Shown piece after piece: positions 46,299 through 62,382 of a stretch of DNA of 64,000 bases (positions are counted from its first letter, which is position 1; each line of letters starts with the position of its first letter). Origin of the DNA: Thermophilibacter immobilis (GTDB taxonomy: Bacteria > Actinomycetota > Coriobacteriia > Coriobacteriales > Atopobiaceae); assembly GCF_015277515.1 (NCBI RefSeq), contig NZ_CP063767.1, forward strand, positions 868,001 to 932,000. Direction: 5' to 3'. Below the pieces are notes generated by a model. The model ran no database searches. It was not told the DNA's origin and worked only from the letters and a program-made list of their open reading frames with translations. The position numbers and the translations under genes were made by a program.

Positions 46299-47042
46299 AT
46301 GAAGAAGTATCAGGCGATACTCATGGCGGCGGGCGTGGGCAGCCGACTCTCGGCCCACACGCGCAAGCCCAAGAGCACCCTCGGCATAGACGACCAGGAC
46401 GGCGAGACAATCATCGGGCACACGTGCCGGCAGCTCAGCGAGCGCGACTTCAAGATCAACGTCGTGGTGGGCTATCGCAAGGAGAGCGTCAAGGTGCAGC
46501 TCCGAGACTGGCCCGTCCGCTTCTACGAGAACCCCTTCTACCGCGTTACCAACTCGATCGGCTCGCTGTGGTTCGCGCGCGAGGCCCTCGTCCACGCCCA
46601 GGAGAGGGGCCAGGACGTGCTTCTGGCCAACGCGGATGTCTACTTTGGCGAGGACCTCGTCGACCGTCTCATGCTCTGCCCCGACGGACTCGTGATGTTC
46701 GGTGACTCGTCGCGCACCAAGGTGGGTGACTACTTCTTCAGGACCAACGACCAGGGCATGCTCGTGGGCAACGGCAAGGGGCTCGACGTCTCCGAGCGCA
46801 CCTGCGAGTACGTGGGCATAGCCAAGGTGGCCAGCGAGATGCTCCCCTCCTTTATCGCCCAGCTCGACTACCTGATCTGGAACGGGAAGTTCGACATGTG
46901 GTGGGAGGACGCGTTCTACAGCTTCAAGGAGATGGCTCCCGTCAGGGTCCTGGACGCGGAGGGCTCCTTCTGGGGCGAGGTCGACACAATCGAGGACTAC
47001 CAGCGCATCCTCGACCACACGGCGGGCGGTGAGGGGCGATGA
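46299..47042 (+). CDS. LicC/PntC-like CTP-dependent nucleotidyltransferase
   Basis: 247 aa from ATG 46299 with GGATGGAG upstream; ATG 46287 is an alternative. The N-terminal loop AILMAAGVGSRLSAHTRKPKSTLGI is the nucleotidyltransferase signature, followed by NVVVGYRKESV, FYRVTNSIGSLWFAREAL and NADVYFG, as in phosphocholine cytidylyltransferase LicC and 2-aminoethylphosphonate cytidylyltransferase PntC. Metal ligands include the Asp of NADVYF and GEVDT near the end. It overlaps the next gene, a class V aminotransferase, by four bases. In some bacteria PntC is fused to such an aminotransferase, so the substrate may be 2-aminoethylphosphonate. Confidence 0.78.
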   Translation: MKKYQAILMAAGVGSRLSAHTRKPKSTLGIDDQDGETIIGHTCRQLSERDFKINVVVGYRKESVKVQLRDWPVRFYENPFYRVTNSIGSLWFAREALVHAQERGQDVLLANADVYFGEDLVDRLMLCPDGLVMFGDSSRTKVGDYFFRTNDQGMLVGNGKGLDVSERTCEYVGIAKVASEMLPSFIAQLDYLIWNGKFDMWWEDAFYSFKEMAPVRVLDAEGSFWGEVDTIEDYQRILDHTAGGEGR

Positions 47043-48166
47043 ACGCCATGACCCAAGGGACCGACAAGACCGACAAGACCGCGCTGCGTCCAGAGGTCCT
47101 CTTCACGGTGGGTCCCACCCAGATGTCCCCCCAGACCCTCGCGTGTGCGGGGCGTCAGGTGCCCTACTTCAGAAACCAGGCCTTCTCTGACGTGGTCCTG
47201 GAATGCGAGCGATTCGTCCTGGAGTTCGCGCACGCCCCCCAGGGCTCGCGGATGGTGCTCCTCACGGCGAGCGGAACCGGTGCCATGGAGGCCACGGTCA
47301 CGAACTGCCTCGACGCGTCCGACCGGGCCCTCGTGATCGTGGGCGGCGGCTTCGGCAGACGCTTCTCGGCGCTGTGCGAGCGCCACGGGATAGCCCACGA
47401 CGACCTCGAGCTGGATTCTGAGGAGGCGCTCACGCAGGAACGCCTAGCCGCCTTCGAGGGCGCGGGGCACACGGCCCTTCTGGTCAACCTCCACGAGACC
47501 TCGACCGGGCAGCTCTACGACCTGCCCATGCTCTCAGACTTTTGCCAGCGTAACCAGATGACACTCGTCGTGGACGCTATCAGCTCGTTTGCCGCAGACA
47601 GGATCGACATGGCCGCCTCCTGCATAGACGCACTCATCGTGAGCTCGCAGAAGGCGCTCGCGCTCGCCCCGGGGATCTCCCTCGTGCTGCTCTCGCCGCG
47701 CATGCTGGAGGAGCGCGTGGCGCGCATCACGTCGCCGACCCTCTACTTCGACTTCGCCGACTACCTCGTCAACGGCACGAGGGGCCAGACCCCCTTCACC
47801 CCTGCCGTGGGAATCGTCTACGAGCTGCTCGAGCGGCTGCGGCGTATCGATGCCTCAGGTGGGATTGACACGGAGGTCGCGCGCACCCGCACTTTAGCCA
47901 GGGACTTTCGCGGCCGCATCGCTGAGCTGAACGTGGGGGCGCCGAGCTTTCCGATGTCGAACGCCCTGACGCGCGTGATCTTGCCCAAGCCGGTGGCGGG
48001 CGAGACGGTCAGAGCGCTCGCGGAGGAGGGGCTCTTCGTGAACCCCTGCGGCGGTGTGCTCGGCGAGCGATGCTTTAGGGTGGCGCACATAGGCGACCTG
48101 AGTGAGAAGGACAACGCGCAGCTGGTCATAGCCCTTGGCGAAGTGCTGGAGAGCCTGGGAGCCTAG
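47039..48166 (+). CDS. Class V aminotransferase, AEP transaminase-like
   Basis: 375 aa. PLP fold type I: FTVGPTQMSP, LLTASGTGAMEATVTN (cofactor phosphate loop), NLHETSTGQL, LVVDAISSFA and the Schiff-base Lys in IVSSQKALALAPG. It is closest to the PhnW / serine-glyoxylate group. Translationally coupled to a PntC/LicC-like gene, it could interconvert phosphonoacetaldehyde and 2-aminoethylphosphonate. No phosphonate-biosynthesis genes (PEP mutase, decarboxylase) are in the window, so the substrate remains open. It ends convergently with the next gene, sharing its stop bases. Confidence 0.75.
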   Translation: MNAMTQGTDKTDKTALRPEVLFTVGPTQMSPQTLACAGRQVPYFRNQAFSDVVLECERFVLEFAHAPQGSRMVLLTASGTGAMEATVTNCLDASDRALVIVGGGFGRRFSALCERHGIAHDDLELDSEEALTQERLAAFEGAGHTALLVNLHETSTGQLYDLPMLSDFCQRNQMTLVVDAISSFAADRIDMAASCIDALIVSSQKALALAPGISLVLLSPRMLEERVARITSPTLYFDFADYLVNGTRGQTPFTPAVGIVYELLERLRRIDASGGIDTEVARTRTLARDFRGRIAELNVGAPSFPMSNALTRVILPKPVAGETVRALAEEGLFVNPCGGVLGERCFRVAHIGDLSEKDNAQLVIALGEVLESLGA

Positions 48167-49306: not shown

Positions 49307-50512
49307 CTACTCCACGACCTCGTCCGCCGCCTCCAGCTCCTCGGCCTTCCTGACGGCGAGCAGGTTGGCGAACGCCACGGCGCAGACTCCCGCGACGAGC
49401 TTTCCCACCAGCACCGGGACGATGAGCGAGGGCTGGAAGTTCGCCGTGAACGAGAGGTGGTCGCCAAAGAGGAACGCGGAGCACACGGCAAAGGCCAGGG
49501 TGATCACCTTGTCGCGGGCCTTGAGGTCCTTGACCATGGAGAGCAGGGCCAAGACGTTTGCCGAGCCGGCGAGCAGCCCCGCCGTGGCGTCCGAGGAGAG
49601 CCCCACGAGGCCGCCTACCTTGGCGAGCGGGCGTGCCAGGTAGCGCCTGATGAGATACACCATGGGGAAGGCGCCGCACAGCATCATGGCGATCGCGCCG
49701 GAGACCTCGAGCGCACGGAAGATGTCGGTCTCGTCGGCGATGATGGGCTCGAACCCGAACGAGCCGAACGCCGTGGTGAAGAAGCCGGTGAAGTACTCGA
49801 TGACCACGAGCACGAACACGATCTTGAAGGCGGACTCCATCACGCGCCCGAACACGATGAACCCCTTGATCATGGCATCGGGCTTGAACTTCAGGCCCAG
49901 GGCCAGGGCGCCGCAGATGATGATTAGGGGGACGAGGTTGTGGGCTATCTGCGCGAAGCTGAGCGCGAGCTGGTAGGTCGCCGGCGCGTTCGTGGAGACC
50001 ATCTCGCGGATCAGCGGGTGGGAGAGGGCGATGATGACGCTCGAGACCAGCACGCCTACCGGAATGGCAAGAAGCCCGCTCATGACGCCGAGGGCCAGAT
50101 ACTTCCGGTCGCGCTTCTCGAGCATCTTGAGGGCCACGGGGACGGTGAAGACGATGGTCGCGCCGGCCATGTAGCCGGTCATCATCGCCATGATCCAGCC
50201 CTCGCGTGTCTGGGCGAGGGCGTCGGCCAGTTGGTAGCCGCCCATGTCAACGGCAATGAAGGTGGTCGCCGCCATGGCCGGGTCCGCGCCGAGCGCCGCG
50301 TAGGCGGGGCCAAAGACCGAGGAGACGAACGCCGTCAGGTAGGGGGCCGAAGCCATGATGCCGGCCACGGGCAGGAATATGGGGCCAATCGAGTCGATGC
50401 CCTCCACGAACTGCTGCCCCAGCTCACTCTCCGGCCTAATGACCGAGGCGAGCGCCCCGACCAGCGCGCACGCCATGATGACGTACACGACGACGGTTCC
50501 GATTATCTCCAT
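49307..50512 (-). CDS. eutH: EutH-type ethanolamine permease
   Basis: 401 aa with about ten membrane helices. EutH family sequence: ESELGQQFVEGIDSIGPIFLPVAGIMASAPYL, FIAVDMGGYQLADALA, FGDHLSFTANFQPSL. EutH imports ethanolamine. No ethanolamine ammonia-lyase or microcompartment genes are near; instead it follows, with a 31-bp gap on the same strand, a LicC-LicA fusion gene. So imported ethanolamine (or choline) may be used for polymer decoration, not catabolism. Confidence 0.88.
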   Translation of the reverse strand: MEIIGTVVVYVIMACALVGALASVIRPESELGQQFVEGIDSIGPIFLPVAGIMASAPYLTAFVSSVFGPAYAALGADPAMAATTFIAVDMGGYQLADALAQTREGWIMAMMTGYMAGATIVFTVPVALKMLEKRDRKYLALGVMSGLLAIPVGVLVSSVIIALSHPLIREMVSTNAPATYQLALSFAQIAHNLVPLIIICGALALGLKFKPDAMIKGFIVFGRVMESAFKIVFVLVVIEYFTGFFTTAFGSFGFEPIIADETDIFRALEVSGAIAMMLCGAFPMVYLIRRYLARPLAKVGGLVGLSSDATAGLLAGSANVLALLSMVKDLKARDKVITLAFAVCSAFLFGDHLSFTANFQPSLIVPVLVGKLVAGVCAVAFANLLAVRKAEELEAADEVVE

Positions 50513-50543
50513 GCGTGAGTTCCCCTCGCTCGGACAGACAGGA

Positions 50544-52322
50544 CTAGGACACGTGGGCCATCTGCGAATACAGCTCCAGGGCTGCGGTCGAGTACTCCTT
50601 CGTGGCTCGGTACCACAGGTACAGCCACTCGCCCACGGGGTCTCCCTTGGACTCCTTGTAGAGGGCCCACACGAACCAGTAGTAGGCGGAGAGCCCCACG
50701 TAGGCGAGGCAGTGCCGGTACTCCTGCGCCGTGGGCTCCCGGCCAAAGTACCGCGCGATCGCCTGGTCCGCCTCGGCGCGGTCGTAGTCGGAGCAGCAGA
50801 TGAAGGTCCCCAGGTCGGAGGCATAGTCCGACATGGCGGAATACTCCCAGTCGATGAGGTACATCTCGTCGCCCCGCACCAGGAAGTTGGGACCGTAGAA
50901 GTCGTTGTGGCACAGGCACGCCGCGACGCCGTCGGCGCGGACGCACGCGCTCAGGCGCTCGGCCCGTCCCTTGAGCTTCTCGAAGTCGGGAAACGAGGGG
51001 TAGCGACGCTGGCCGAGCATGCGGACGAGCCCCTGTGCCTCCTCGTAGATGGCAAACGTCCACTCGGAGGACTCGCCGCTCGCATGAAGACGCCTGATGA
51101 GCTCCATGGCGTGGGCCACCTGGCCCTGGTCGTGGTAGTCGAACGGCTCGCAGCCGTCCACGAAGCGCGATATCTTCCAGCCCTTGTCGGGGTCCTGGTA
51201 GATGAAGGTGTCGTCGATGCCGAGCCTCTTTGCGACCGACTGCGAGTACGCCTCGCTCCTGCGGTTGATGATCTCCTCGGTTCCGGCGCCGGGGTGGCGG
51301 TACACGTAGGGGGTCGAGCCCACCGTGAAGCGGAAGGAGAGGTTGGTCAGCCCCTCCTTGATGGGGACGATGCCCTCCACGTCGTCGCGGGTGCAGTCGA
51401 GCGTGCGGCAGATGTTGTCGAGGATTTCGGAGTCCACGTTCTGCAGGAAGTCGTGGTCGAACTCCTTGAGGTCGGCCAGGGAGTCGAACTCGTAGATGAC
51501 GCCCGGCTCGTAGGGGCGCAGCACCATAGAGAGGTCCTTGAGATGGTCGACGTAGATGTCCTCCCAGAGCTTCTGCGCGGTCTCGGGTCGGTCGTACTCC
51601 TGCTCGAGTATCTCAACGAAGCGCCGGGAGAAGCTCCGGTCGAAGTAGACGTGCCCGAGCATCCCGTAGCTGTCGGAGCCGCCCACGGTGACGTTGACGA
51701 TGCGCCCGTTCGTGCCCGTGCCCATGCAGTACTCGTCGGTCGGTCCCGCGAAGTAGGTCCCGGAGTAGTAGGCCTCGTACACGTAGGGCTCGAACACGTT
51801 CTGGGTGAAGTAGTCGTCCGAGGAGCAGACGTAGGTGTTGCCCAGCTGCTCGCGCACAAGCATGAGCGTCGAGTTGTTGTTGCGCGCGGCGTACTCCTCG
51901 TTCACGCGTATCTTCACGCCCAGGAGGTCCTCCAGGTAGAAGAAGGCCTCCTTCATGTAGCCGACCACCACGGTGATGTCGGCGATGCCGGCGGCCTGGA
52001 GCTGGCGTATCTGGCGCTCGATCAGGACCTCGCCGCGCACCTTGAGCACGCCCTTGGGCCTCTCGTACGAGAGGGGAGCGAAGCGCGTGGAGAGGCCTGC
52101 GGCCATGATGACCGCGTTGTCGACCTTGTAGGGCGCAAGCGCGGCCAGCCCGTCAGACGTGACGCGGAAGCCGTCTGCAAGGCTTCGGTCCGACAGCGCG
52201 CGATACGTCTTGTTCACGAGCCCGAGCGAGAGCCCCGTCTTGTCCGCAAGGTCGCGCTGCGTGTGCGCGGACTCGCCCAACAGGGCGACGAGCACGTTGA
52301 ACTCGTTGCGAGATAGTCCCAT
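50544..52322 (-). CDS. wHTH-LicC-LicA fusion (paralog A)
   Basis: 592 aa. Residues 1-62: winged helix (EFNVLVALLGESAHTQRDLADKTGLSLGLVNKTYRAL). Residues 68-300: cytidylyltransferase with VIMAAGLSTRFAPLSYERPKG at about 71-91, then LIERQIRQLQAAGIADITVVVGYMKE and NTYVCSSDDYF. Residues 315-592: choline/ethanolamine kinase fold with the catalytic HNDFYGPNFL near 472 and IDWEYSAMSD. One protein thus could sense, phosphorylate and CDP-activate an amino alcohol. First gene of an operon with eutH, which hints at ethanolamine. Two paralogs lie at 57746-59521 and 59547-61373. Confidence 0.87.
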   Translation of the reverse strand: MGLSRNEFNVLVALLGESAHTQRDLADKTGLSLGLVNKTYRALSDRSLADGFRVTSDGLAALAPYKVDNAVIMAAGLSTRFAPLSYERPKGVLKVRGEVLIERQIRQLQAAGIADITVVVGYMKEAFFYLEDLLGVKIRVNEEYAARNNNSTLMLVREQLGNTYVCSSDDYFTQNVFEPYVYEAYYSGTYFAGPTDEYCMGTGTNGRIVNVTVGGSDSYGMLGHVYFDRSFSRRFVEILEQEYDRPETAQKLWEDIYVDHLKDLSMVLRPYEPGVIYEFDSLADLKEFDHDFLQNVDSEILDNICRTLDCTRDDVEGIVPIKEGLTNLSFRFTVGSTPYVYRHPGAGTEEIINRRSEAYSQSVAKRLGIDDTFIYQDPDKGWKISRFVDGCEPFDYHDQGQVAHAMELIRRLHASGESSEWTFAIYEEAQGLVRMLGQRRYPSFPDFEKLKGRAERLSACVRADGVAACLCHNDFYGPNFLVRGDEMYLIDWEYSAMSDYASDLGTFICCSDYDRAEADQAIARYFGREPTAQEYRHCLAYVGLSAYYWFVWALYKESKGDPVGEWLYLWYRATKEYSTAALELYSQMAHVS

Positions 52323-52488: not shown

Positions 52489-54549
52489 CTAGTCGCTCAC
52501 GATGGGCCAGGTCACACCTGTCTCGTGCCAGTTGCTCCAGTCGAGGACGTCGCCAGTTATCTCCCATCGCCTGATGGAGTCGTAGGTGTAGTTCTGGTCC
52601 ACGAGGACCGAGGTCGCGTTGTAGTAGCGCGTGCGGGGCTCGTCGGGCACGTCGTAGACGGGGGTGCCCCAGGTGGAGGGGTCTCCGCCCATGGCGCCGA
52701 CCAGGGTCGCGGAGAGGTCGGCGTGGCCCGTGGGCACTTCGGACACCTGCACGGGCGCGCGCGGGGCACCGGCAGGCTTGACCAGAAGTATGGGGCTCGT
52801 CACGTGGTCGATCTCGTCAGTCAGGTACCACTCGCCATGGTCTGCGGTGATCACGATGGTGGACTGGTCGTAGACGCCCAGCTCCTTGAGCTGCCGCAGG
52901 TACTCGCTCACGATCTTGAGAGAGCCCCTGCGTTGTTGCTCGGGCGAGGTCTGGTCCTCTCCCACGCGCTCGGCGTTCTCGTCCATGGTGAAGGGATAGT
53001 GAGCACCGGTCATGTGAATGACATGCAAGTCTCCGCTCTGCCCGCCGTCCTCGACCACGAGCCCTCGCGCCCGGAGCTCCTGATAGTACTCCGCGTCGTC
53101 CAGAAGCCAGGGCTTGTTGTCGAGGTTGTCGTCAGAGGGCATGATGGCGTCGTTGATCTCGTCTGTGTAGAACCAGAACCCGGGCTTGAGGACCCAGGGG
53201 AGGTCCCGGTAGAGGGAGCACCGGCCCAGGATGGCTATCGTGTCCCAGAAGTTGCCCGTGAAGTCGGGGATGGAGTGGACGTTGACGGTCTTCTGGGAGA
53301 GCGCGGTCATGCCGTTGGTGAGGTCGGAGCCGTAGACGCCCACGGAGTAGCCCAGGCGCCCCGCCTCGTCGAGCAGGTTGTCCTCTGCGTACCAGCTTCT
53401 AATCAGGGTGTTAGAGAAGGCTTTGTCATCCGGGGAGAGCGAGCGGCCCGTGAGGAGGCCCGCCATGGCGTAGCGCGTGGGAATCATCCGGCCCACCGAG
53501 TTGCGGTAGTAGGTGAAGCCCTCCATCTGGTCCAGCGCTCCGGGATCCTCCGCAAAGGCCTCATCGAGGTAGCGCGTGTCAAACGTGTCCAGTACGAAGA
53601 CGATGACGTTGCTCTTCTCGGAGACGTCCATCATGCCCTGCATGGTGACGTAGGGCTTGCTGGAGCCCATGGTGCTGCCGTCGGCCGCGGGCTGGGACAG
53701 GAGCATCCCCAGCCCGATCCCCTGTGCCGCCACGAGGGTCACGGCGGCAAAGCTCGCCGCGCCCTTGAACGCGAGCGACTTGCGTAGCGAGACCAGCACG
53801 CAGAGCGCCACGATAGCAACCCACGCAAGGCCGCTCACCAGCGTGGCCTTGGTATAGGCGGACCAGTCCACCACGTTGCCGTCCGCAGGGGGGAGCCCAC
53901 CGTTGAGCAGCATGACCTGCACGTAGGAGGAGATGCCCAGGGCCACCACCACGGCAAAGGCCACGTCAAAGGCGCGCCCGCGCAAGAGGCTCATGAGCAG
54001 AGAGAGGCCGATTACGCAGCAGACGGCAAAGACCGCCACGGGGCCCGCCACGTTGCCCACGCCAAAGAAGAGGCTGCTCGAGCTTCCCGCCACAATCTCC
54101 AGCGGGGCCACCACTCCCACCGTGAAGACGAGCAGCACGCTCGCCACGAGGGAAAAGACCAAGCGCGCCTTCCAGGCGAGCCTCTGGGGGCGCGGGTGCC
54201 CAAGAGATGTCGCATCGCGCGCGGCGTGGCGACCGGCCTCGGCGAGAAGCTCCTCGCGTCGCGGGTCGCTGGCGGCGACTTCCCGCACCGCAGGCTCGAC
54301 GACCTTGTCGGCGTTCTCGTCGATCCTGAGGACGCGCAGCAGCACGCTCCGAACGCGCCGCCACACCACGCCCAGGAGCGCGGAGAGCGCCACGGCGACC
54401 CCGGCGAGCGCCTGAATGGTGTAGGTCATGACCGAGGGGTCGACGTACCCCCAGGCGGGCTCGGTGGTCGCCACGAGCGCGAGCGCGACCATCGCCGTGC
54501 CAAACAGGAGGTCGACCCCTGCGAGCAGCACACGTCTAGCGAGCCTCAT
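52489..54549 (-). CDS. LTA-synthase-like membrane sulfatase-fold enzyme
   Basis: 686 aa. About seven membrane helices in the first 310 residues with a cytoplasmic charged loop, then an external alkaline-phosphatase/sulfatase domain: NVIVFVLDTFDTRYLDEAF (first metal Asp), GRMIPTRYAMAGLLTGRSL (candidate nucleophile Thr), VIHMTGAHYPF, TIVITADHGEWYLTDEIDHVTSPILL (metal DH pair). This is the architecture of LtaS and phosphoethanolamine/phosphoglycerol transferases. It overlaps the upstream YidC-glycerophosphotransferase gene by 14 bases, so both probably act on the same glycerophosphate polymer. Confidence 0.8.
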   Translation of the reverse strand: MRLARRVLLAGVDLLFGTAMVALALVATTEPAWGYVDPSVMTYTIQALAGVAVALSALLGVVWRRVRSVLLRVLRIDENADKVVEPAVREVAASDPRREELLAEAGRHAARDATSLGHPRPQRLAWKARLVFSLVASVLLVFTVGVVAPLEIVAGSSSSLFFGVGNVAGPVAVFAVCCVIGLSLLMSLLRGRAFDVAFAVVVALGISSYVQVMLLNGGLPPADGNVVDWSAYTKATLVSGLAWVAIVALCVLVSLRKSLAFKGAASFAAVTLVAAQGIGLGMLLSQPAADGSTMGSSKPYVTMQGMMDVSEKSNVIVFVLDTFDTRYLDEAFAEDPGALDQMEGFTYYRNSVGRMIPTRYAMAGLLTGRSLSPDDKAFSNTLIRSWYAEDNLLDEAGRLGYSVGVYGSDLTNGMTALSQKTVNVHSIPDFTGNFWDTIAILGRCSLYRDLPWVLKPGFWFYTDEINDAIMPSDDNLDNKPWLLDDAEYYQELRARGLVVEDGGQSGDLHVIHMTGAHYPFTMDENAERVGEDQTSPEQQRRGSLKIVSEYLRQLKELGVYDQSTIVITADHGEWYLTDEIDHVTSPILLVKPAGAPRAPVQVSEVPTGHADLSATLVGAMGGDPSTWGTPVYDVPDEPRTRYYNATSVLVDQNYTYDSIRRWEITGDVLDWSNWHETGVTWPIVSD

Positions 54550-56455
54550 GGATGCTCGCCCCCTCTCTTTTGGTCTGCTGCGAAAGGATCGAATCGAGCA
54601 GATAGTGACCAGCTATCTCCGCGCCCCGACCGGGGTTGAAGACAGTTTTCGAGCGCGCCCGCATGATGCGCTCGTTCCATTTTCGAGGGTCCTTCAGCAT
54701 GTCCTCGACCATCTGAGGCAGCTGGTCGAGTCGCTTGGGGTCGAGCGAGACGCCCACCTCGTCTCTAAGGGTGATGTCGGTCGGCTCGATGCCGAGCCTC
54801 TCCCAGTTGGGGTTGCCGACCTTCATGGGGGTGTTAATACAGATGCAAGGTTTCAGGGTAGTAAAGGAGAACTCGCAGAAGATAGACGACCAGTCCGTGA
54901 TCAGGACGTCGGCGTCGAAGATGGAGTCGCTCGTGCTGAAGTCCTGCTCGAAGGTGAGCTCCTCGTCCGTATGGGAGGAGTAGCGTGCGACTAGGGACTC
55001 CCAGCGAGCGCGATAGCGTTTCACGTACTCGGGGTGAGGTCGCACGATGACGTGGTAACCATGTCCAAGGAGGGGTCTGATGACCTCGTCGGCGCAGGAG
55101 TCGAGAATGCAGTCGTCCTGCCAGGAGGGCGCGAGGAGCACGATGGGGCGTTTGCTCTTTGGGCGCGCGCGCTGGGCATATTCGGCGATCTCGCGATCGA
55201 GGAGGTCGTATCCGCACTCCACGAGTTCCTTGGGCCTCAGATTCCGAAGTTCTTCGGCTCTGCGTATCTCCCTGACCTGGTGGGGGCCCACGCACAGCAG
55301 GGAGTCGTGGTTGTCGTAAGACTTCTCAAGTGCCGTGAGGTGCGTGCTCGTCATGTGGTGGAAGGTGAAGACGTACTTTGTGTCCTTCCTCACGTAGGAG
55401 CGCTTGAGGTAGAAGTTGTCCAGGTCCTCGAGCGTCGTGAGGACCACGTCGGCGTCCAGCTTCATCATGAGGGTGATGAGGCGTTTCTCGCCGATGTAGT
55501 AGGGGAAGATGCGGGGGTTCTCCTCGGCAATTCCGAAGATCTGGTCGTTTGGGTCGCCGGTTATGTAATGTATGCGCACGTCAGAGTTTGCCAGGAGCCA
55601 TTCGAGAGCGCCCTGAAAGTACTTGTAGAAACCGCTTGACTCTGAGTAGACCACGAGGTGTTTGTCCACCGTCTCGAAGAAGCGCTTGTAGTCGGCCTTC
55701 TCCCGGCGGGCGAGCGGGTCCGGACGCCACCAGGGACCCCGGCGTGGCGAGAGCGCGTTGAGCTCGGCGAGTGCGGCCTGGCTGGCATGCAGATCGTCGT
55801 AGTCAACGTGGCGCTCGGGTCTTATGAGGAGGTTGCACAGGGCCTGCACCGCGATGGACATGAGGTTGGAGCAGACCCAGTAGAAGGCCATTCCAGCCGC
55901 CACGTAGATTCCCAGGACGAGCGAGAGCAGGATGGAGAGGCCGTTGGTGGAGTTCTTCTCCGCGCGGCTCTGCTCGCGCTGGAGAGGGTTGATGTGATTC
56001 TGCGCCACGCCCATGACCACGGCAGAGAGTGCTGCCAGAAGGGGCATGACCCACGAGAGCCCCCCGTCCTCCACGGGAATCAGACCCAAGAACTCGGTGC
56101 CGGGCGCGCCGCCGTCGGTGATGCCATGGATGACCTCGACGAGTCCGAAGAGGATGAGTATCTGGGCGGCAAGGGGGATGAGCGAGAGAAGCGGGTGGTA
56201 GTGATACTTCTTATTGAGCTCGTTTTGCTTCTCGCCTATGGTCTCTGTGTCACCGAAATACTTGACCTTAGCCCGATTGAGATCCGGCATGAGCCGTACC
56301 ATCACGATGCTGTTCCACTGGCACCACAGGGAAAGTGGCATGAGCACGATCTTAATAATGACGGTGAACAGCAGGATGGCCATCCACCAGCTTCCCGTGA
56401 GGTCGTAGCAGGGTTGTACGACCAGCGAGAAGAGCTGAGCGAGCGCGTCGAGCAT
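54536..56455 (-). CDS. YidC/Oxa1 insertase domain fused to CDP-glycerol glycerophosphotransferase
   Basis: 639 aa from ATG 56455 (AAAAGGAGCC upstream). Residues 1-215 match the YidC/Oxa1 core: SWWMAILLFTVIIKIVLMPLSL, LMPDLNRAKVKYFGD, HPLLSLIPLAAQILILFGLVEVI and FYWVCSNLMSIAVQALCNLLI; the pore Arg of Gram-positive YidC is Lys35. Residues 250-639 match TagB/TagF-type glycerophosphotransferases: LEDLDNFYLKRSYVRKDTKYVFTFHHMTSTH, VLLAPSWQDDCILDS, VIVRPHPEYVKRY, DVLITDWSSIFCEFSF. One uninterrupted frame. The membrane module could anchor the transferase, bind the lipid acceptor or move the polymer. It heads the operon with the LtaS-like gene. Confidence 0.88.
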   Translation of the reverse strand: MLDALAQLFSLVVQPCYDLTGSWWMAILLFTVIIKIVLMPLSLWCQWNSIVMVRLMPDLNRAKVKYFGDTETIGEKQNELNKKYHYHPLLSLIPLAAQILILFGLVEVIHGITDGGAPGTEFLGLIPVEDGGLSWVMPLLAALSAVVMGVAQNHINPLQREQSRAEKNSTNGLSILLSLVLGIYVAAGMAFYWVCSNLMSIAVQALCNLLIRPERHVDYDDLHASQAALAELNALSPRRGPWWRPDPLARREKADYKRFFETVDKHLVVYSESSGFYKYFQGALEWLLANSDVRIHYITGDPNDQIFGIAEENPRIFPYYIGEKRLITLMMKLDADVVLTTLEDLDNFYLKRSYVRKDTKYVFTFHHMTSTHLTALEKSYDNHDSLLCVGPHQVREIRRAEELRNLRPKELVECGYDLLDREIAEYAQRARPKSKRPIVLLAPSWQDDCILDSCADEVIRPLLGHGYHVIVRPHPEYVKRYRARWESLVARYSSHTDEELTFEQDFSTSDSIFDADVLITDWSSIFCEFSFTTLKPCICINTPMKVGNPNWERLGIEPTDITLRDEVGVSLDPKRLDQLPQMVEDMLKDPRKWNERIMRARSKTVFNPGRGAEIAGHYLLDSILSQQTKREGASIHEAR

Positions 56456-56806: not shown

Positions 56807-57742
56807 CTAGTCTGGTTTCTTTCCCAGAAGCGCTTTGAAATCCGTTGCTGCCGTGATGGCTCCGAGGATGATGACCAGCGCACAGACGACTCCTCGTGGC
56901 TCGGGGGGTACTCCCAGGAGGAGAAGCGAGAAGGGGATGGCCCAGGCTGAGTAGGTGATGTTGAGCGCCATGGCCCGCGACGCTCCGATTCGTGCGATTG
57001 CCTTGTAATAAAGAAGATACGAAACGGTGCCTGCAAGGGCTGCTAGCGCAATGACAGGCAGAGCCGAGCTGAAGACGATATCAAGAGCGCGCCCCCATCC
57101 TCCGAGCAGTGGAAGAATGACGAGTGCATAGGCCAGCGAGGAGGTTGTCTGACGAATCTGCATGGCGCACTCGTCGTCAATGCTTGCGTTGTGGAGTCCC
57201 CAGTCTATGATGACTGCTTCGGACCCCCAGCCAAAGACGCATATCAGGGCACCCACGATGCCCGTGGTCCAGTCCCCTGGTATGTTGGGGGCAGGGGAGT
57301 AGCCTAGATAGGCTACGCCGAGAATGCAGGCGAGGAGACCCGCCCACTGATAGGACTTCATGCGCTCTTTGAGGAACACGGTGGCGAGGAGAGCTCCAAA
57401 GGCGGGAAAGAAGGAGGATATCGCCGCCGTATAAGAGGCCCCGATGTTGTCGATGGCTATCACGTAGCCTGTCATGCCTATGGGTCCGCCGATGAGAGCC
57501 GCGCCAAGGATGACAAGCCCCTCGCGCGTGCGCAGCGCCCTGAGCGTTTGGGAGGCCTTTCTTTTGAGAAGCATGTAGGCAAGGGTGAAAAGTGCGGAAC
57601 AAGCATCGTGCAGGAATGTGCTCGTAAAGGCGGCGAGCGCAACGGCTTGCGCGGAGGATGAGAATACCGAGCTTGAAAGAGCGATGCTTAGAATTACCGT
57701 GTCAAGGGCCCAGGTAAGAGCTGCTCCTATTCCGTAAGGCAT
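56807..57742 (-). CDS. licB: LicB-like choline permease (DMT family)
   Basis: 311 aa, ten membrane helices. LicB-type features: MPYGIGAALTWALDTVIL at the start, GGPIGMTGYVIAIDNIGASYTAAISSFFPAFGALLATVFLKERM, FGWGSEAVIIDWGL and SYLLYYKAIARIGASRAMALNITYSAWAIPFS. LicB imports choline for phosphocholine decoration. It starts three bases after paralog B ends, with its ribosome site (GGGGGAG) inside the B gene, so C, B and licB form one operon. Confidence 0.82.
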   Translation of the reverse strand: MPYGIGAALTWALDTVILSIALSSSVFSSSAQAVALAAFTSTFLHDACSALFTLAYMLLKRKASQTLRALRTREGLVILGAALIGGPIGMTGYVIAIDNIGASYTAAISSFFPAFGALLATVFLKERMKSYQWAGLLACILGVAYLGYSPAPNIPGDWTTGIVGALICVFGWGSEAVIIDWGLHNASIDDECAMQIRQTTSSLAYALVILPLLGGWGRALDIVFSSALPVIALAALAGTVSYLLYYKAIARIGASRAMALNITYSAWAIPFSLLLLGVPPEPRGVVCALVIILGAITAATDFKALLGKKPD

Positions 57743-57745
57743 GGC

Positions 57746-59521
57746 TTACTCCCCCTCTTCGTACCAGGTCAGTACACGGTCGACGTAATCAACCGCGTAG
57801 CTTTTGTAGATGCTCTCCCACTCGCCCACGCCAGCCCCCTCGGCGTCCTTCTCGAGAGCCCAGACGTACCAGCACCATCCACCAAGGACGACCATTGCCC
57901 AGAAGTGTCGACGCTCAAGGAAGGTAGGCGTTCCTCCAAAGTAGTAGGAGAGAGCCTCCTCGGCTTTACCTTCGTCGTATTGGCTGCATATGACGAAGGT
58001 GGCGAAGTCATTGCCCGGATCGGACATGCCCGCAAACTCCCAATCGATGACATCCATTCCGTTTTGCTCGTCGATGAGGAAGTTGAGGGGGAGATAGTCG
58101 TTGTGACTAAAGCAGGGAGGGTAGCCATCACCTGATGCATGCGCGCTGATTCGGGCGACCTTTTCGCGCAGCTCGTAATAGCCAGAGATGTTGATGGCAC
58201 CATGGCCCTCGAGAAGGCTCTCGTAGCTGACCCCGTTTCCAAAGAAGTCAAATGTTGCATTGATGCGAGCTCCCGACTCGTGAAAGCTGCGGCAGAGCTC
58301 CATGGCACGCTTCACCTGAGTGGGATCGAGGGGGTCCAGATTCCGAGCGTTGCGCACGAACCGACAGATCTTCCAGCCCTGTTTGGAATCTTCGTATAGA
58401 AATGTCCGGTCTACGCCAAGACGGTGAGCGACCGTGTTCGCTTGCGTTTCGGCATCTCGGTCGATGAACTTATCCGTGCCTATTCCTGGATGACGGTAGA
58501 CGTACTCCTGGCCGTTGACCGAAAAGCGGAACGAGAGGTTCGTGAGACCCTGGCTTACGGGGAGGAAACCATGGATGTCAGCCCGAAAGCAGCTGAGCAC
58601 CTGTGTGATGTTGTCGAGAATAGGGGAGCTTACATGAGAGACAAACCCTGGCTCAAACTCCTCGAGCTCCTCGAGTGAGTTGAACTCATGGATGATGTCC
58701 GAGGAGTAACGTCTGATTTCCATATCAAGCGAAGAGAGGTTCTCGGCATAAATAGACTCCCACGGTTTGCTTTCGTTCTCGGACTGCATAAGGGCTTGGC
58801 CAAGAAGGGGAATAAAGCGTTCTGAAAAGGCCCGATCAAAGTAGGCATGCCCCTGCGTCACCCATGAGTCATGCCCACCTATGCTTGCTGAGACGATTCG
58901 TTCGCCCCCATCGGTGCCGAGGCACCACTCATCAGTGGATCCTTCGACATAGACAGAGGCATGATATGCCTTATACACGTAGCGTTCAAAGGGGTTGGCG
59001 GCGAAGTAGTCATCTGATGGGCAGAGATAGGTGTTGCCCAGCAGCTCCCGCGCAAGCCAGAGGGTCCAGCCATTGTCCCTTTCGGCATACTCATGGTTGA
59101 CGAGCAGCTTTACCTCATATTTTGCGCTCAAATAGAAGAAGCACTCTTGCTTGTATCCTACGGCGATGGTGATATTCGTAATCCCGGCGGCCTGCAGCTG
59201 CTCGATCTGCCTCTCGATAAGAATCTCCCCGCGCACCTTGAGCAGTCCCTTGGGCTCCTCGTAGGAGATAGGCGCAAAGCGAGGGTAGAGGTCTGTTGCC
59301 AGTATGACGGCGCTATCCACACGATATGGCTCAAGCGCTTCGGCTCCCTTTTGGGTGACGCGTCCACTCGAGATAAATCCGTCGTGCGTGAGGGTGTCTA
59401 GAGTTTCTTCAACCATCTCAGGCGGGAGGTCCGTTGCGTGTGCCACCTGCGGGGCATGGAGTACAGGCTCATTCATCGTGAAGATACGCAGGACGTCAAA
59501 CTCAGTTCTTGTTAGGGTCAC
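57746..59521 (-). CDS. wHTH-LicC-LicA fusion (paralog B), degenerate nucleotide loop
   Basis: 591 aa from GTG 59521, aligned with the starts of paralogs A and C. Winged helix 1-60, cytidylyltransferase-like 65-300, kinase 310-591. The nucleotide loop, AAGLSSRFAP in C and AAGLSTRFAP in A, is ATDLYPRFAP here: the loop Gly and Ser/Thr are gone while the following EEPKGLLKVRGEILIERQI is conserved. The kinase has intact HNDYLPLNFL and IDWEFAGMSD. So it may keep kinase activity but lack cytidylyl transfer. 25-bp gap after paralog C; followed by licB. Confidence 0.82.
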   Translation of the reverse strand: MTLTRTEFDVLRIFTMNEPVLHAPQVAHATDLPPEMVEETLDTLTHDGFISSGRVTQKGAEALEPYRVDSAVILATDLYPRFAPISYEEPKGLLKVRGEILIERQIEQLQAAGITNITIAVGYKQECFFYLSAKYEVKLLVNHEYAERDNGWTLWLARELLGNTYLCPSDDYFAANPFERYVYKAYHASVYVEGSTDEWCLGTDGGERIVSASIGGHDSWVTQGHAYFDRAFSERFIPLLGQALMQSENESKPWESIYAENLSSLDMEIRRYSSDIIHEFNSLEELEEFEPGFVSHVSSPILDNITQVLSCFRADIHGFLPVSQGLTNLSFRFSVNGQEYVYRHPGIGTDKFIDRDAETQANTVAHRLGVDRTFLYEDSKQGWKICRFVRNARNLDPLDPTQVKRAMELCRSFHESGARINATFDFFGNGVSYESLLEGHGAINISGYYELREKVARISAHASGDGYPPCFSHNDYLPLNFLIDEQNGMDVIDWEFAGMSDPGNDFATFVICSQYDEGKAEEALSYYFGGTPTFLERRHFWAMVVLGGWCWYVWALEKDAEGAGVGEWESIYKSYAVDYVDRVLTWYEEGE

Positions 59522-59546
59522 AAGAGGCTCTTTTCTTTTGTACAGA

Positions 59547-61373
59547 TTAAAATCTTGCGACGACGTCTTCTCGGGGGATTGACTCAAGACATGCCTCCTC
59601 GTACAGGGCAAGGACCTTGTCCAGATAGCGCTCGGCGTAGCGGAAGTAGATGTAGAGCCACTCGCCCACGAAGTCGCCCTCGGCCTCCTTGAGGAGGGAC
59701 CAGAGGTACCAGCACCAGCCGGCCAGCTGGACGTGCGCGAGGTTGTGACGGGTCTCGGCGGCCGTGGGGGCGCGCCCGAAGTAGTCAGCCAGCGCTGCGA
59801 GGACCTCGTCCTCGTCGAGCTGGCAGCAGACGCAGAACGTGCCGAAGTCGTTCGCGTAGTCGCTCATGCCGGCGTACTCCCAGTCGATGAGGTAGTACGT
59901 GTCGTCCTCGTCGATGAGGAAGTTGAGCTCGAAGAAGTCGTTGTGGTTGAGACAGGTCGGCGCGTTGTCCGCCTTGACGCATCTCTCGAGTCGGTCGACC
60001 TTGGCCGCCATCTCCGCGTAGCCGGGGATATCGATGGGACCCCTCTCCAGGAGGAGACCCTCGTAGCGCTTGGCCTCCTCGTAGAAGTCGAAGTGATTCT
60101 CGACTTTGGCGCCGCTCTCGTGGAGCGAGCGCGCCATTCTCATGGCGTGGGCAACCTGAGAGGAATCTTTCGAGTCGAGGCCCCTGGCATGGGGGACGAA
60201 CCGAGAGATCTTCCACCCCCGCGTCGGGTCCTCGTAGATGAACGTGTCGTCAAGTCCCAGGTTTTTTGCCGTCTTGAGTGCTGCGACCTCGCCCCTTCGA
60301 TCTATGAGGAGCTCCGTGCCCACACCGGGATGGCGGTAGACGTATTCCCCCTCGCCGGTCGCGAAGTGGCATGAGAGGTTCGTTAGGCCCTGTTTGAGAG
60401 GGTAGACGTCATGAATCTCGTCCTTGGAGCAGCCGAGTACGCCTTCGATGTTGTCGAAGATATCGGAGTCGACGTTCTGCAGGAAGTGAGGGTCAAATAC
60501 GCACAGCTCGTCGAGGGAGTCAAACTCGTTGATGGTCCCTTCCGGATAGGGGCGCACGACCATGTCGAGCTCGGTGAGGTGCTCGGCGAGAAGAGCCTCC
60601 CAGAGCTTGTCGAAGGTCTCAGGAAGATTGCACTCCGCATCGAGAATCTTGGTGAAGCGCTTGGAGAACGCTCGGTCAAAGTAGGCATGGCCGGTCATAT
60701 ACCAGGAGCCTCTGCCGCCCATGCTGACGGAGACAATCTGACCGCGGGCGCCTGCCTCCATGCACCATTCATCCGTTTGGCCCTCGGACCACTGGGCCGC
60801 GTAGTAAGCCTTCCAGACATAGGGCTCAAAAGGGTTTTGGGTGAAGTAGTCATCGGAGGAGCATACGTAGGTGTTGAGGAGCCGATTGCGCACGCACCAT
60901 AGCGATGCGTTGTTGTTGTGCGAGGCGTATTTCTCGTTCACCACGATTGAGACGCCGTACTTGTCCTCGAGGTAGAAGAAGTACTCCTTCATGTAGCCCA
61001 CCACTAGGGTGATGCTTGTGATCCCGGCAGTCTGCAGCTGCTCGATCTGCCTCTCGATGAGAATCTCCCCGCGTACCTTGAGCAGCCCCTTGGGCTTCTC
61101 GTAGGAGATAGGCGCAAAGCGAGAGGAGAGCCCCGCCGCCAGTATGACGGCGTTGTCCACCTTGTAGGGAAGCAGGGCCTCCAGTCCCGCCGGCGTGAGG
61201 CGGCCCGCGGCGACGAGCCCCATGCCCTCGAGCTCGCCTATGGCGGCGCTCACGCTCCCGAGTGAGAGCGCCGCCCACTTCGCAATACTGCGTTGGCGCG
61301 CTTCGGGCGAAGCGCGCAGGACGTCAAGAACAGAGAACTGCTTCTTGGTAAGATTCGTTCCGGCTCCCTTCAT
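59547..61373 (-). CDS. wHTH-LicC-LicA fusion (paralog C)
   Basis: 608 aa from ATG 61373; the ribosome site is weak (TCTTCAGAAAC upstream), so leader-poor or regulated initiation is possible. Winged helix 1-68 (KKQFSVLDVLRASPEARQRSIAKWAALSLGSVSAAIGELE), cytidylyltransferase with VILAAGLSSRFAPISYEKPKG, NTYVCSSDDYF, and kinase with LNHNDFFELNFLIDEDD and IDWEYAGMSDYANDFG. All catalytic motifs are present. First gene of the C-B-licB operon and divergent from licD; its operator at 61409 may control both directions. Confidence 0.87.
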   Translation of the reverse strand: MKGAGTNLTKKQFSVLDVLRASPEARQRSIAKWAALSLGSVSAAIGELEGMGLVAAGRLTPAGLEALLPYKVDNAVILAAGLSSRFAPISYEKPKGLLKVRGEILIERQIEQLQTAGITSITLVVGYMKEYFFYLEDKYGVSIVVNEKYASHNNNASLWCVRNRLLNTYVCSSDDYFTQNPFEPYVWKAYYAAQWSEGQTDEWCMEAGARGQIVSVSMGGRGSWYMTGHAYFDRAFSKRFTKILDAECNLPETFDKLWEALLAEHLTELDMVVRPYPEGTINEFDSLDELCVFDPHFLQNVDSDIFDNIEGVLGCSKDEIHDVYPLKQGLTNLSCHFATGEGEYVYRHPGVGTELLIDRRGEVAALKTAKNLGLDDTFIYEDPTRGWKISRFVPHARGLDSKDSSQVAHAMRMARSLHESGAKVENHFDFYEEAKRYEGLLLERGPIDIPGYAEMAAKVDRLERCVKADNAPTCLNHNDFFELNFLIDEDDTYYLIDWEYAGMSDYANDFGTFCVCCQLDEDEVLAALADYFGRAPTAAETRHNLAHVQLAGWCWYLWSLLKEAEGDFVGEWLYIYFRYAERYLDKVLALYEEACLESIPREDVVARF

Positions 61374-61545: not shown

Positions 61546-62382
61546 GTGAGACCCATACCTTCCGAAGAGATTCAGCCCTTGCTTCTTGGGGTTTTAAGGG
61601 CGTTTGCACGCTACTGTAACGCTCATGGGCTGCGTTATTTCTTGGACTACGGGACCCTTTTGGGTGCTGTGCGCCATAAGGGCTTCATCCCCTGGGATGA
61701 CGACGTTGACGTCTCCATGCTTCGAGATGACTACAAGCAGCTCCTGGCGCTAGCGCATGAGTCACCCTATCTTGACACAGAAAAGAAGTATCGAATTCTG
61801 CTTCCCGCTGAGCTTCCGAATTTCTATCCTTTTGTCAAGGTCGTGGACGAATCCACACTTGCGTACGAGAAGAACATCAAGCGAGAATATGCTCTGGGTA
61901 TCTGGCTGGACGTGTTCTGTCTCGTGCACTGCCCCGATGATGCCCAGGCATCCGCGCAGCTATTCTCGCAGCACCATCGATACAAGAAGATGAATGAGCT
62001 AGTCGTCTGCGGTAACGCCGTGGGCTCCAGACAAAAAATTCTCTATCCCTTTGCATCGGCGGCGGGCGCGGCTCTTCGACTCGTGGGCAGGGATAGTGAA
62101 CACTGGGCGCAACGCATGATTGGACTCGTAGAGGGTGCACCGTCCACGGGAGACGCGGTGGGCCAGCTGTCGTGGCCCGATTGTTTTGAGACCGACGTCT
62201 TCCCATCGTCATGGTGGGATGATGTGGTGGAGCTCGAGTTCGAGGGGGAGCGTTTCACGGTGCCTCGTGCCTATCATGAGGTGCTTCAGAAGCACTATGG
62301 TGACTACATGGAACTGCCCCCGGAGAAGGACCGTGTCCGCCATGATTTTGAGGCGTACTATCGAGGAGAACGTACGGCCTAA
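61546..62382 (+). CDS. licD: LicD-family phosphocholine transferase
   Basis: 278 aa from GTG 61546 (AGGGAG upstream). LicD signatures: LLGVLRAFARYCNAHGLRYFLDYGTLLGAVRHKGFIPWDDDVDVSMLRDDY (nucleotidyltransferase-fold metal motif DDDVD) and FPSSWWDDVVELEFEGERFTVPRAYHEVLQKHYGDYMELPPEKDR near the end. It transfers phosphocholine (or a similar phospho-group) from the CDP form to a glycan. Divergent from paralog C. Confidence 0.9.
   Translation: MRPIPSEEIQPLLLGVLRAFARYCNAHGLRYFLDYGTLLGAVRHKGFIPWDDDVDVSMLRDDYKQLLALAHESPYLDTEKKYRILLPAELPNFYPFVKVVDESTLAYEKNIKREYALGIWLDVFCLVHCPDDAQASAQLFSQHHRYKKMNELVVCGNAVGSRQKILYPFASAAGAALRLVGRDSEHWAQRMIGLVEGAPSTGDAVGQLSWPDCFETDVFPSSWWDDVVELEFEGERFTVPRAYHEVLQKHYGDYMELPPEKDRVRHDFEAYYRGERTA

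Follow-up and report, generated by a model that had tools for sequence, protein, structure and literature searches.

The fusion gene and its overlapping partner

The window analysed here, 64,000 nucleotides (nt) of Thermophilibacter immobilis contig NZ_CP063767.1 (positions 868,001 to 932,000), contains two overlapping minus-strand genes that together encode four protein modules. These modules, which were found to recur together, are designated Y, with the YidC fold; T, with the TagF/TarL fold; D, a very small membrane module; and S, which is LtaS-like and has the alkaline-phosphatase fold. Their positions in the window are as follows.

54536..56455, minus strand: Y-T gene (protein P0001), 639 amino acids (aa), YidC-fold and TagF/TarL-fold domains; open reading frame (ORF), Pfam, survey, structure prediction
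55826..56422, minus strand: Y module, Oxa1/YidC membrane core, residues 12-210; Lys35 codon at 56351-56353, NPLQREQ loop at about residues 156-162
54581..55672, minus strand: T module, GT-B fold of TagF/TarL type, residues 262-625; Pfam, structure comparison, invariant residues
52489..54549, minus strand: D-S gene, 686 aa, overlapping the Y-T gene by 14 nt; ORF, Pfam, profile search
54280..54456, minus strand: D module, YVDPSVMTYTIQALAG helix, basic stretch and IDENA, residues 32-90 of D-S
52489..53637, minus strand: S module, alkaline-phosphatase-superfamily domain, residues 305-686; fold, invariant residues

The Y-T reading frame runs without interruption on the minus strand from the ATG at 56455 to the stop at 54536. 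Pfam detected PF02096 (60KD_IMP) at residues 23-208 (E 3.7e-26, 92.5 bits against a cut-off of 35), the match spanning profile positions 1-162 of 163, and PF04464 (Glyphos_transf) at residues 374-538 (E 1.5e-9, 37.7 bits against a cut-off of 22.1). An earlier note on this DNA had described a single frame joining a YidC-like core to a TagB/TagF-type transferase, and the presence of both families above cut-off in one open frame of 639 aa bears this out. The score of P0001 with NCBIfam yidC_oxa1_cterm (TIGR03592) was 79.7 bits, slightly below the cut-off of 84.3, which was passed by the relative L133 with 102.3 bits. The AlphaFold2 model of Y-T, calculated from an alignment of 63 sequences, had a mean predicted local distance difference test (pLDDT) of 89.6 and a predicted template modelling score (pTM) of 0.71, with a YidC-like N-terminal and a TagF-like C-terminal domain.

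The possibility was considered that the fusion is an artefact of a missed stop or a frameshift. However, the same fusion was found near full length, as a single match of at least 585 query residues, in 60 of 396 genomes of the class Coriobacteriia, which excludes a sequencing slip, and in 57 of the 396 there is no internal stop; the artefact was therefore ruled out. Named isolates carrying Y-T include Lancefieldella rimae, Atopobium minutum and Adlercreutzia mucosicola, and records named as Clostridia and Saccharibacteria also gave near-full-length matches. Bearing on the other side are an internal stop in three of the 60 near-full-length matches (genomes G098, G285 and G372), a Y-T that is split over two frames by BLAST (G326) and another that was never seen whole (G350). 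The Y-T fusion is real. A foreign origin could not be argued from base composition, the guanine-cytosine contents of the window (0.631), the Y-T gene (0.597) and the D-S gene (0.662) being uninformative.

When the Y family profile was compared with the Protein Data Bank, YidC entries ranked first, with E. coli YidC (6al2 group) at E 3.5e-18 over residues 4-207 and YidC 2 (3wo7) at E 1e-15. Foldseek with the model of the N-terminal domain also listed E. coli YidC 6al2 (E 2.7e-6). Lys35 was aligned to Arg366 of E. coli YidC in the profile alignment, and this site is K in 62 of the 63 Y-T family members and R in one; across 29 carrier genomes, canonical YidC had Arg at the groove site in 29/29, whereas Y had Lys in 29/29. 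The replacement of the pore Arg by Lys35, which the earlier note had put forward as a sign that the module was repurposed, is thus present. However, Lys keeps the positive charge, and the replacement was rejected as evidence of repurposing because it is weak. A separate canonical yidC, whose existence that note had raised as a question, lies at 2161051-2161632 of the same genome, and one was also present in 30/30 carriers tested, so the candidate role of Y as the sole YidC of the cell was rejected.

W44, N48, L158, Q159 and Q162 of Y are invariant in 63/63 sequences, and N197 is a further invariant polar residue. Over 406 pairs from 29 genomes, Y had a mean identity of 70%, T of 58% and canonical YidC of 55%; in 89% of the pairs the identity of Y equalled or exceeded that of canonical YidC. 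Since the identity of Y exceeds that of both T and canonical YidC, Y appears to be constrained more strongly than an anchor needs. The canonical YidC of this genome has a basic cytoplasmic C-tail; in Y-T, the T domain stands in its place. An insert of about 60 residues was observed in the outer loop after Y residue 111 in the divergent relatives L034, L035, L037, L038, L040, L042 and L044.

The T model was superimposed on TagF 3l7m with Z 22.4 (root-mean-square deviation, rmsd, 6.0; 349 residues aligned) and on TarL 8va1 with Z 21.7 (rmsd 5.4, 329 aligned). Close behind was the UDP-N-acetylglucosamine epimerase 6vlb, which has the same GT-B fold (Z 21.6, rmsd 3.5, 314 aligned). H366, R472, H474, D521 and S523 are invariant in 63/63, and H366 was aligned to the WHG-motif His of a classical PF04464 relative (hhalign, probability 64%). 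The WHG His is catalytic in TagF-type enzymes, in keeping with structure titles that name the H444N and H300N mutants.

The Pfam Sulfatase family matched D-S with 24.1 bits, just below the cut-off of 25, and NCBIfam gave no match at 0.001. The S family profile matched S. aureus LtaS 2w5r at E 5.3e-9, which agrees with the earlier description of an overlapping LtaS-like gene. The AlphaFold2 model of D-S had a pLDDT of 84.8 and a pTM of 0.69. The outer domain of S was closest to sulfamidase 4mhx (Z 23.1, rmsd 3.2, 279 aligned), superfamily matches lay at Z about 20-23, and Foldseek returned PbgA 6xlp, phosphonate monoester hydrolase, MCR-1 and LtaS. D321, T358, H517, D570 and H571 were invariant in 24/24 sequences. 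Residue 355, which we take to be the place where a sulfatase motif would carry Cys or Ser, is M, I, L, S or A in the family; since it is not fixed as Cys or Ser, the nucleophile is more likely to be T358, in line with the Thr nucleophile of LtaS. Assigned by invariance, T358 is the probable nucleophile of S, although T346 is invariant as well, which weakens the assignment.

Recurrence, rearrangement and distribution of the four modules

Genomic loci around 79 Y-T genes were compared, the partial Y-T genes of loci L127 and L131 having been dropped. The distance from Y-T to S was scored for the 31 of these genes with a recognised full S gene on the same strand, the other 48 being unscored: 28 gaps lay between -41 and +40 nt, two pairs were fused and one pair was 3.2 kb apart. 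An S-like ORF of at least 400 aa was present in 32 of 41 Coriobacteriia loci, and 9/9 misses were at contig ends. Beside one Y-T gene, three tandem D-S-like paralogues were seen in each of L108, L109, L062, L063 and L075.

The near-invariant helix YVDPSVMTYTIQALAG lies in the N-terminal 90 residues encoded by the S gene. The D module occurs in two motif forms, YIDPSV and YIDPGTG. Outside Coriobacteriia its usual form is a stand-alone frame; 34 of these were found, of 68-197 aa (28 of them at most 111 aa), mostly directly downstream of Y-T, with one (L128) in a metagenome-assembled genome (MAG) labelled Planctomycetia. The stand-alone D proteins tested had no Pfam or NCBIfam match above cut-off. 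D was present within the locus for 67 of the 79 Y-T genes, as counted with a profile seeded from the same loci. Some D genes were kilobases away from Y-T. Of the 12 Y-T genes whose locus lacks D, 10 stop no more than 1.3 kb from a contig end; for the remaining two (L144), D is found elsewhere in the genome. At this Anaerotruncus locus (L144:6787-11878), two divergent Y-T genes stand back to back.

The D profile models the DPSV form only and does not pick up the DPGTG form, so that absence of D means absence of the D of what is called system I below. When the class was searched, this profile matched in 72 of the 74 genomes that carry the fusion and in 0 of 322 other genomes (Fisher p 1.5e-77, uncorrected for phylogeny). 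The two carriers lacking it are G392, where the gene is cut by the contig end, and G343, which is 88% complete and has the gene on a contig of 5 kb. Among the 245 genomes of the class to which the Anaerotruncus genome of L144 belongs, D was present in 4/4 full-length Y-T carriers and in 0/241 others.

The modules were found in several orders: Y-T with separate D and S genes; Y-T beside D-S, as in this window; Y-T-D-S in one chain; and, in a second clade, Y-S beside D-T. The one-chain form was present in eight genomes as a single open frame of about 1370-1430 aa, seven being checked by BLAST and the eighth by its 1430-aa frame, and the one-chain protein of L098 had all three Pfam families above cut-off. 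The second arrangement, system II, was first met as YidC matches in unexpectedly long frames. In one example, a Y-S fusion of 942 aa (as translated) adjoins a D-T fusion of 448 aa in which D reads YIDPGTGSMLF. System II, a YidC-sulfatase beside YIDPGTG(S/G)MLF-TagF, was found in Coriobacteriia and Clostridia (L219:2628-6818, L049:12964-17067, L249-L258), and in L049 it stands in tandem with a one-chain system I.

A set of 24 T-only genes was examined, comprising 12 of the 13 among the class matches listed (G340 left out) and all 12 from the class of Anaerotruncus. YIDP[GA]TG[SG]MLF was present near the N-terminus in 24/24. An intact Y-S gene was found in the fetched region for 21 of these 24 D-T genes, directly adjacent for 18 and 2.7-7.8 kb away for the remainder (L236, L239 and one of L253); the other three show S with Y broken or cut (split in L233, cut by the end in L235 and L259). 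In a Y-S protein, the stretch that separates Y from the S domain contains about six additional hydrophobic segments. The groove site of system II Y, five residues before the Pro of PLY, was N in 21, S in two, Q in one and unreadable in one of 25 sequences, and a positive residue was present in 0 of the 24 readable ones. For repurposing of the module, this site is a better argument than Lys35.

The T profile scored the two system II D-T enzymes at 169.6 and 178.4 bits and the classical PF04464 paralogue of the window's own genome at 10.9 bits. Judged from sequence, T is a divergent PF04464 subfamily, and the T modules of systems I and II are close relatives. Y, T, D and S form one recurring system. 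The picture in the earlier note lacked the D module, the partnership of the four modules, the proteins with all of them in one chain and the second system with its swapped order.

In the class and phylum surveys, weak matches were counted among the matches listed. Besides the 60 genomes above, 14 further class genomes appeared among these matches, three with fragments on short contigs (G226, G309 and G392) and 11 with divergent forms; G326 and G350 are among these 14. The fusion was present in one of 26 listed genomes of the genus, namely the genome studied here (among the matches listed), which makes gain by transfer or repeated loss likely. In the phylum sample of 396 genomes, none outside the class had a match spanning both domains among the matches listed. 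A scan with an alignment query of one genome each for 84,980 species yielded at least 456 confirmed relatives, their domains unsorted; the best 80 of these include members of Eggerthellaceae, Atopobiaceae, Oscillospiraceae, further Clostridia and Candidatus Saccharibacteria, and also a few MAGs that carry the label Planctomycetia or Lentisphaerae.

Neighbouring genes and a possible substrate

The following accessory genes flank the Y-T and D-S genes in the window.

49307..50518, minus strand: EutH-type transporter
50544..52322, minus strand: nucleotidyltransferase and choline-kinase-like fusion (LicC-LicA type)
56807..57742, minus strand: EamA transporter
57746..61373, minus strand: two LicC-LicA-type fusions (57746-59611 and 59547-61373)
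61546..62382, plus strand: LicD-family phosphotransferase

The LicA/LicC-type, LicD and EutH neighbours suggest an accessory zwitterionic decoration in this genome. The three LicC-LicA-type fusions (50544-52322, 57746-59611 and 59547-61373) are paralogous, and two have weak N-terminal winged-helix matches. A class V aminotransferase (PF00266) was noted at 47039-48163 of the window, which to us is reminiscent of 2-aminoethylphosphonate transaminase. Decoration with phosphocholine or phosphoethanolamine was considered as the core function and rejected: among 22 Coriobacteriia loci of at least 18 kb, LicA/LicC-type genes were present in six, LicD in four and EutH in two.

A search of the window's own genome for TagD (TIGR01518) gave no match. 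At 1792-1795 kb of this genome, an IspD-like cytidylyltransferase and a short-chain dehydrogenase/reductase (SDR) stand beside the classical PF04464 gene; we take this pair to resemble one for the synthesis of cytidine diphosphate (CDP)-ribitol, which makes CDP-ribitol a possible substrate. The term glycerophosphotransferase, applied to T in the earlier note, therefore suits the PF04464/TagF-type fold but claims too much about the substrate, since the subfamily is divergent and TagD was not matched.

Other lineages have other neighbours. In a Saccharibacteria genome of 0.9 Mb, one cluster (L158:9974-17953) holds Y-T, D, an aminotransferase, an ABC-2 exporter, LicD, a nucleotidyltransferase and a PF01467 cytidylyltransferase fused to a Gfo/Idh domain. 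A Christensenellaceae MAG (L134:11934-13916) has, between its Y-T and D genes, a phosphoenolpyruvate mutase fused to two nucleotidyltransferase domains, which suggests that its polymer bears a phosphonate head group. Some loci have GT2 and LicD genes nearby. The unit from which the polymer is built probably varies from lineage to lineage.

A possible machine for envelope phosphopolymers

TagF/TarL enzymes work in the cytoplasm, where CDP-polyols supply the polyol phosphate that they add, and LtaS acts outside the cell by means of a Thr nucleophile. From the order of the modules, T would be placed inside, S outside, and Y and D in the membrane. We propose, with about even probability, that the four-module machine builds an envelope phosphopolymer across the membrane with Y and D as the translocator, the Y-T protein being its cytoplasmic and membrane half; we infer the substrate, the acceptor, translocation by Y and the contact between Y and D. 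On the inner side, T would transfer one or more phosphodiester-linked units from the CDP derivative of an alcohol (ribitol, glycerol or something similar) to a membrane lipid of the inner leaflet. The hydrophilic Oxa1-type groove of Y, with the small D helix as partner, would then pass the lipid-linked head group to the outer leaflet, where S, LtaS-like and with a probable Thr nucleophile, may transfer the unit or chain to an acceptor. The domain identities, predicted folds, partnership with D, fusions, module swap and invariant candidate catalytic residues are directly supported.

This proposal is preferred because the four modules co-occur and are shuffled, because Y is more strongly conserved and because canonical YidC features have been lost. 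The suggestion in the earlier note that the module had been repurposed to hold or move a lipid-linked polymer is thus retained as the leading reading on grounds other than Lys35. As to precedent, lipid scrambling in vitro is known for YidC, Oxa1 and Get1 (PMC10491306, in the part of the paper available). A synthase joined to a translocator is known from MprF, a lipid synthase with a flipping domain, whose domains also function as two separate proteins (PMC2774229, available in part).

Several observations weigh against the proposed machine. Scrambling was reported for every Oxa1 protein tested there (PMC10491306, same portion), so that the fold alone is no mark of a dedicated translocator. The argument as a whole is one from genes and predicted folds. 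In T, the PF04464 match of P0001 is weak, two one-chain proteins fall under the cut-off (14.5 bits in L132, 16.7 in L049), and the missing TagD match counts here as well. LicA/LicC-type genes are present in just six of the 22 long Coriobacteriia loci. In structure, S comes closest to general sulfatases and PbgA and less close to LtaS, and the sequence alignment to LtaS near the nucleophile is two residues off and not significant. Linkage to S is looser outside Coriobacteriia, where an S-like ORF was found in only 22 of 38 loci; the co-occurrence counts ignore phylogeny; and L240, outside the class, is an exception with T and neither D nor Y. The similarity of the D modules of the two systems is weak (hhalign probability 48%). 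In the trees, the Y modules of systems I and II each form one clade (support 99/98 and 100/99) on long stems, so a shared role may be convergent. Finally, the ABC-2 exporter genes of the Saccharibacteria locus offer an alternative possible exporter.

Two other roles for Y were weighed. Y could be a dedicated cis-insertase or folding chaperone for the membrane parts of D and S, which often come from the same operon, with T tethered to it. The near-complete YidC core and the positive Lys35 in 62/63 sequences would suit such a role, and so would the tight spacing, since in 28 of the 31 scored loci the Y-T gene either overlaps D-S or S or lies directly next to it. However, all 30 carriers tested already have a canonical YidC, the groove site is Asn, Ser or Gln in 24/24 readable system II sequences, T has replaced the basic C-tail found in the genome's own canonical YidC, and some D genes lie kilobases away; we consider this explanation unlikely. 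Y could instead be a membrane anchor and assembly hub for the cytoplasmic T and the outer S, transport being left to another protein. A scaffold of this kind is suggested by the one-chain Y-T-D-S forms and the swapped fusions, and the ABC-2 transporter genes adjoining the Saccharibacteria locus could supply the transport. However, Y is more conserved than T or canonical YidC, its invariant polar residues N48, Q159, Q162 and N197 are not needed by an anchor, and anchoring alone fails to explain Y because a Y-S protein already holds about six more hydrophobic segments between Y and S. The anchor was demoted from the leading place on the conservation of Y and these segments, and it now appears improbable.

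It was also considered that the system builds no polymer, S only decorating a separately made polysaccharide in the manner of SccH/GacH with a lipid donor made by T. SccH moves glycerol phosphate (GroP) from phosphatidylglycerol to polysaccharide (PMC11754754, from the part of the text available), and the GT2 and LicD genes near some loci would fit. However, a phosphatidylglycerol donor calls for no TagF-type enzyme, and the fold of T is nearest to the polymerases TagF and TarL, though fold does not give chain length. Decoration of this kind is very improbable.

The proposed machine can be compared with known systems. Y resembles YidC/Oxa1 insertases in a core that covers the whole PF02096 profile, in the Pro and Gln landmarks and, in system I, in the positive charge of the groove residue, with Lys in place of Arg. 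Unlike them, it is fused to a polymer enzyme, lacks the basic C-tail and has its own NPLQREQ loop, and in system II the groove site is Asn, Ser or Gln. T shares with the TagF/TarL (PF04464) polymerases the GT-B fold and an invariant His aligned with the WHG His, but is membrane-integral through Y and, by its sequence, a divergent subfamily. S has the membrane part, the outer alkaline-phosphatase fold and the invariant Asp, His and Thr sites of LtaS-type phosphotransferases (PbgA relatives), to which OpgB and EptA, membrane phosphotransferases of the alkaline-phosphatase superfamily, are related; it differs in carrying the D module or the Y domain and in being genetically tied to T. MprF, which belongs to protein families other than those of Y and T, has no outer-leaflet enzyme, unlike the four-module system. 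It unites in a single protein an enzyme that acts on the head group and the translocation of the lipid (PMC2774229, in the portion available), as is proposed for Y-T. As proposed, Y with D would be like EMC3-EMC6, GET1-GET2 and TMCO1-C20orf24, each an Oxa1-superfamily core with a small membrane partner.

The four-module machine would be a variant of teichoic-type polymer assembly. In a literature search of partial coverage with most subscription papers outside it, no published description of the system was found, nor any paper reporting a polymer enzyme joined to YidC. More tentatively, and with some doubt, the proteins may form a class of transmembrane phosphopolymer synthases in which an Oxa1 domain with D, a new one-helix partner, represents a translocator of lipid-linked product between an inner TagF-type and an outer LtaS-type site, and which arose in two module orders. 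The carriers of such a translocator would, on an equally tentative footing, be gut and oral bacteria, Saccharibacteria included. If this is true, it would to our knowledge be the first bacterial Oxa1 heteromer, and the first Oxa1-type heteromer that we know of with a glycolipid or polymer cargo rather than a protein.

The membrane crossing of lipid-linked envelope precursors is often unexplained, and a fused candidate translocator bears on this problem. In a 2025 study of a streptococcal wall polysaccharide, flippase(s)/scramblase(s) are marked by question marks (PMC11754754, in the part available). Because the candidate translocator described here is covalently fused to enzymes on either side, the question could be tested in one protein. 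The modules recur in Eggerthellaceae, Atopobiaceae, Clostridia and Saccharibacteria as a probable system for surface polymers, and the proposed machine, if true, would give a biological use to the scrambling by Oxa1 proteins in vitro.

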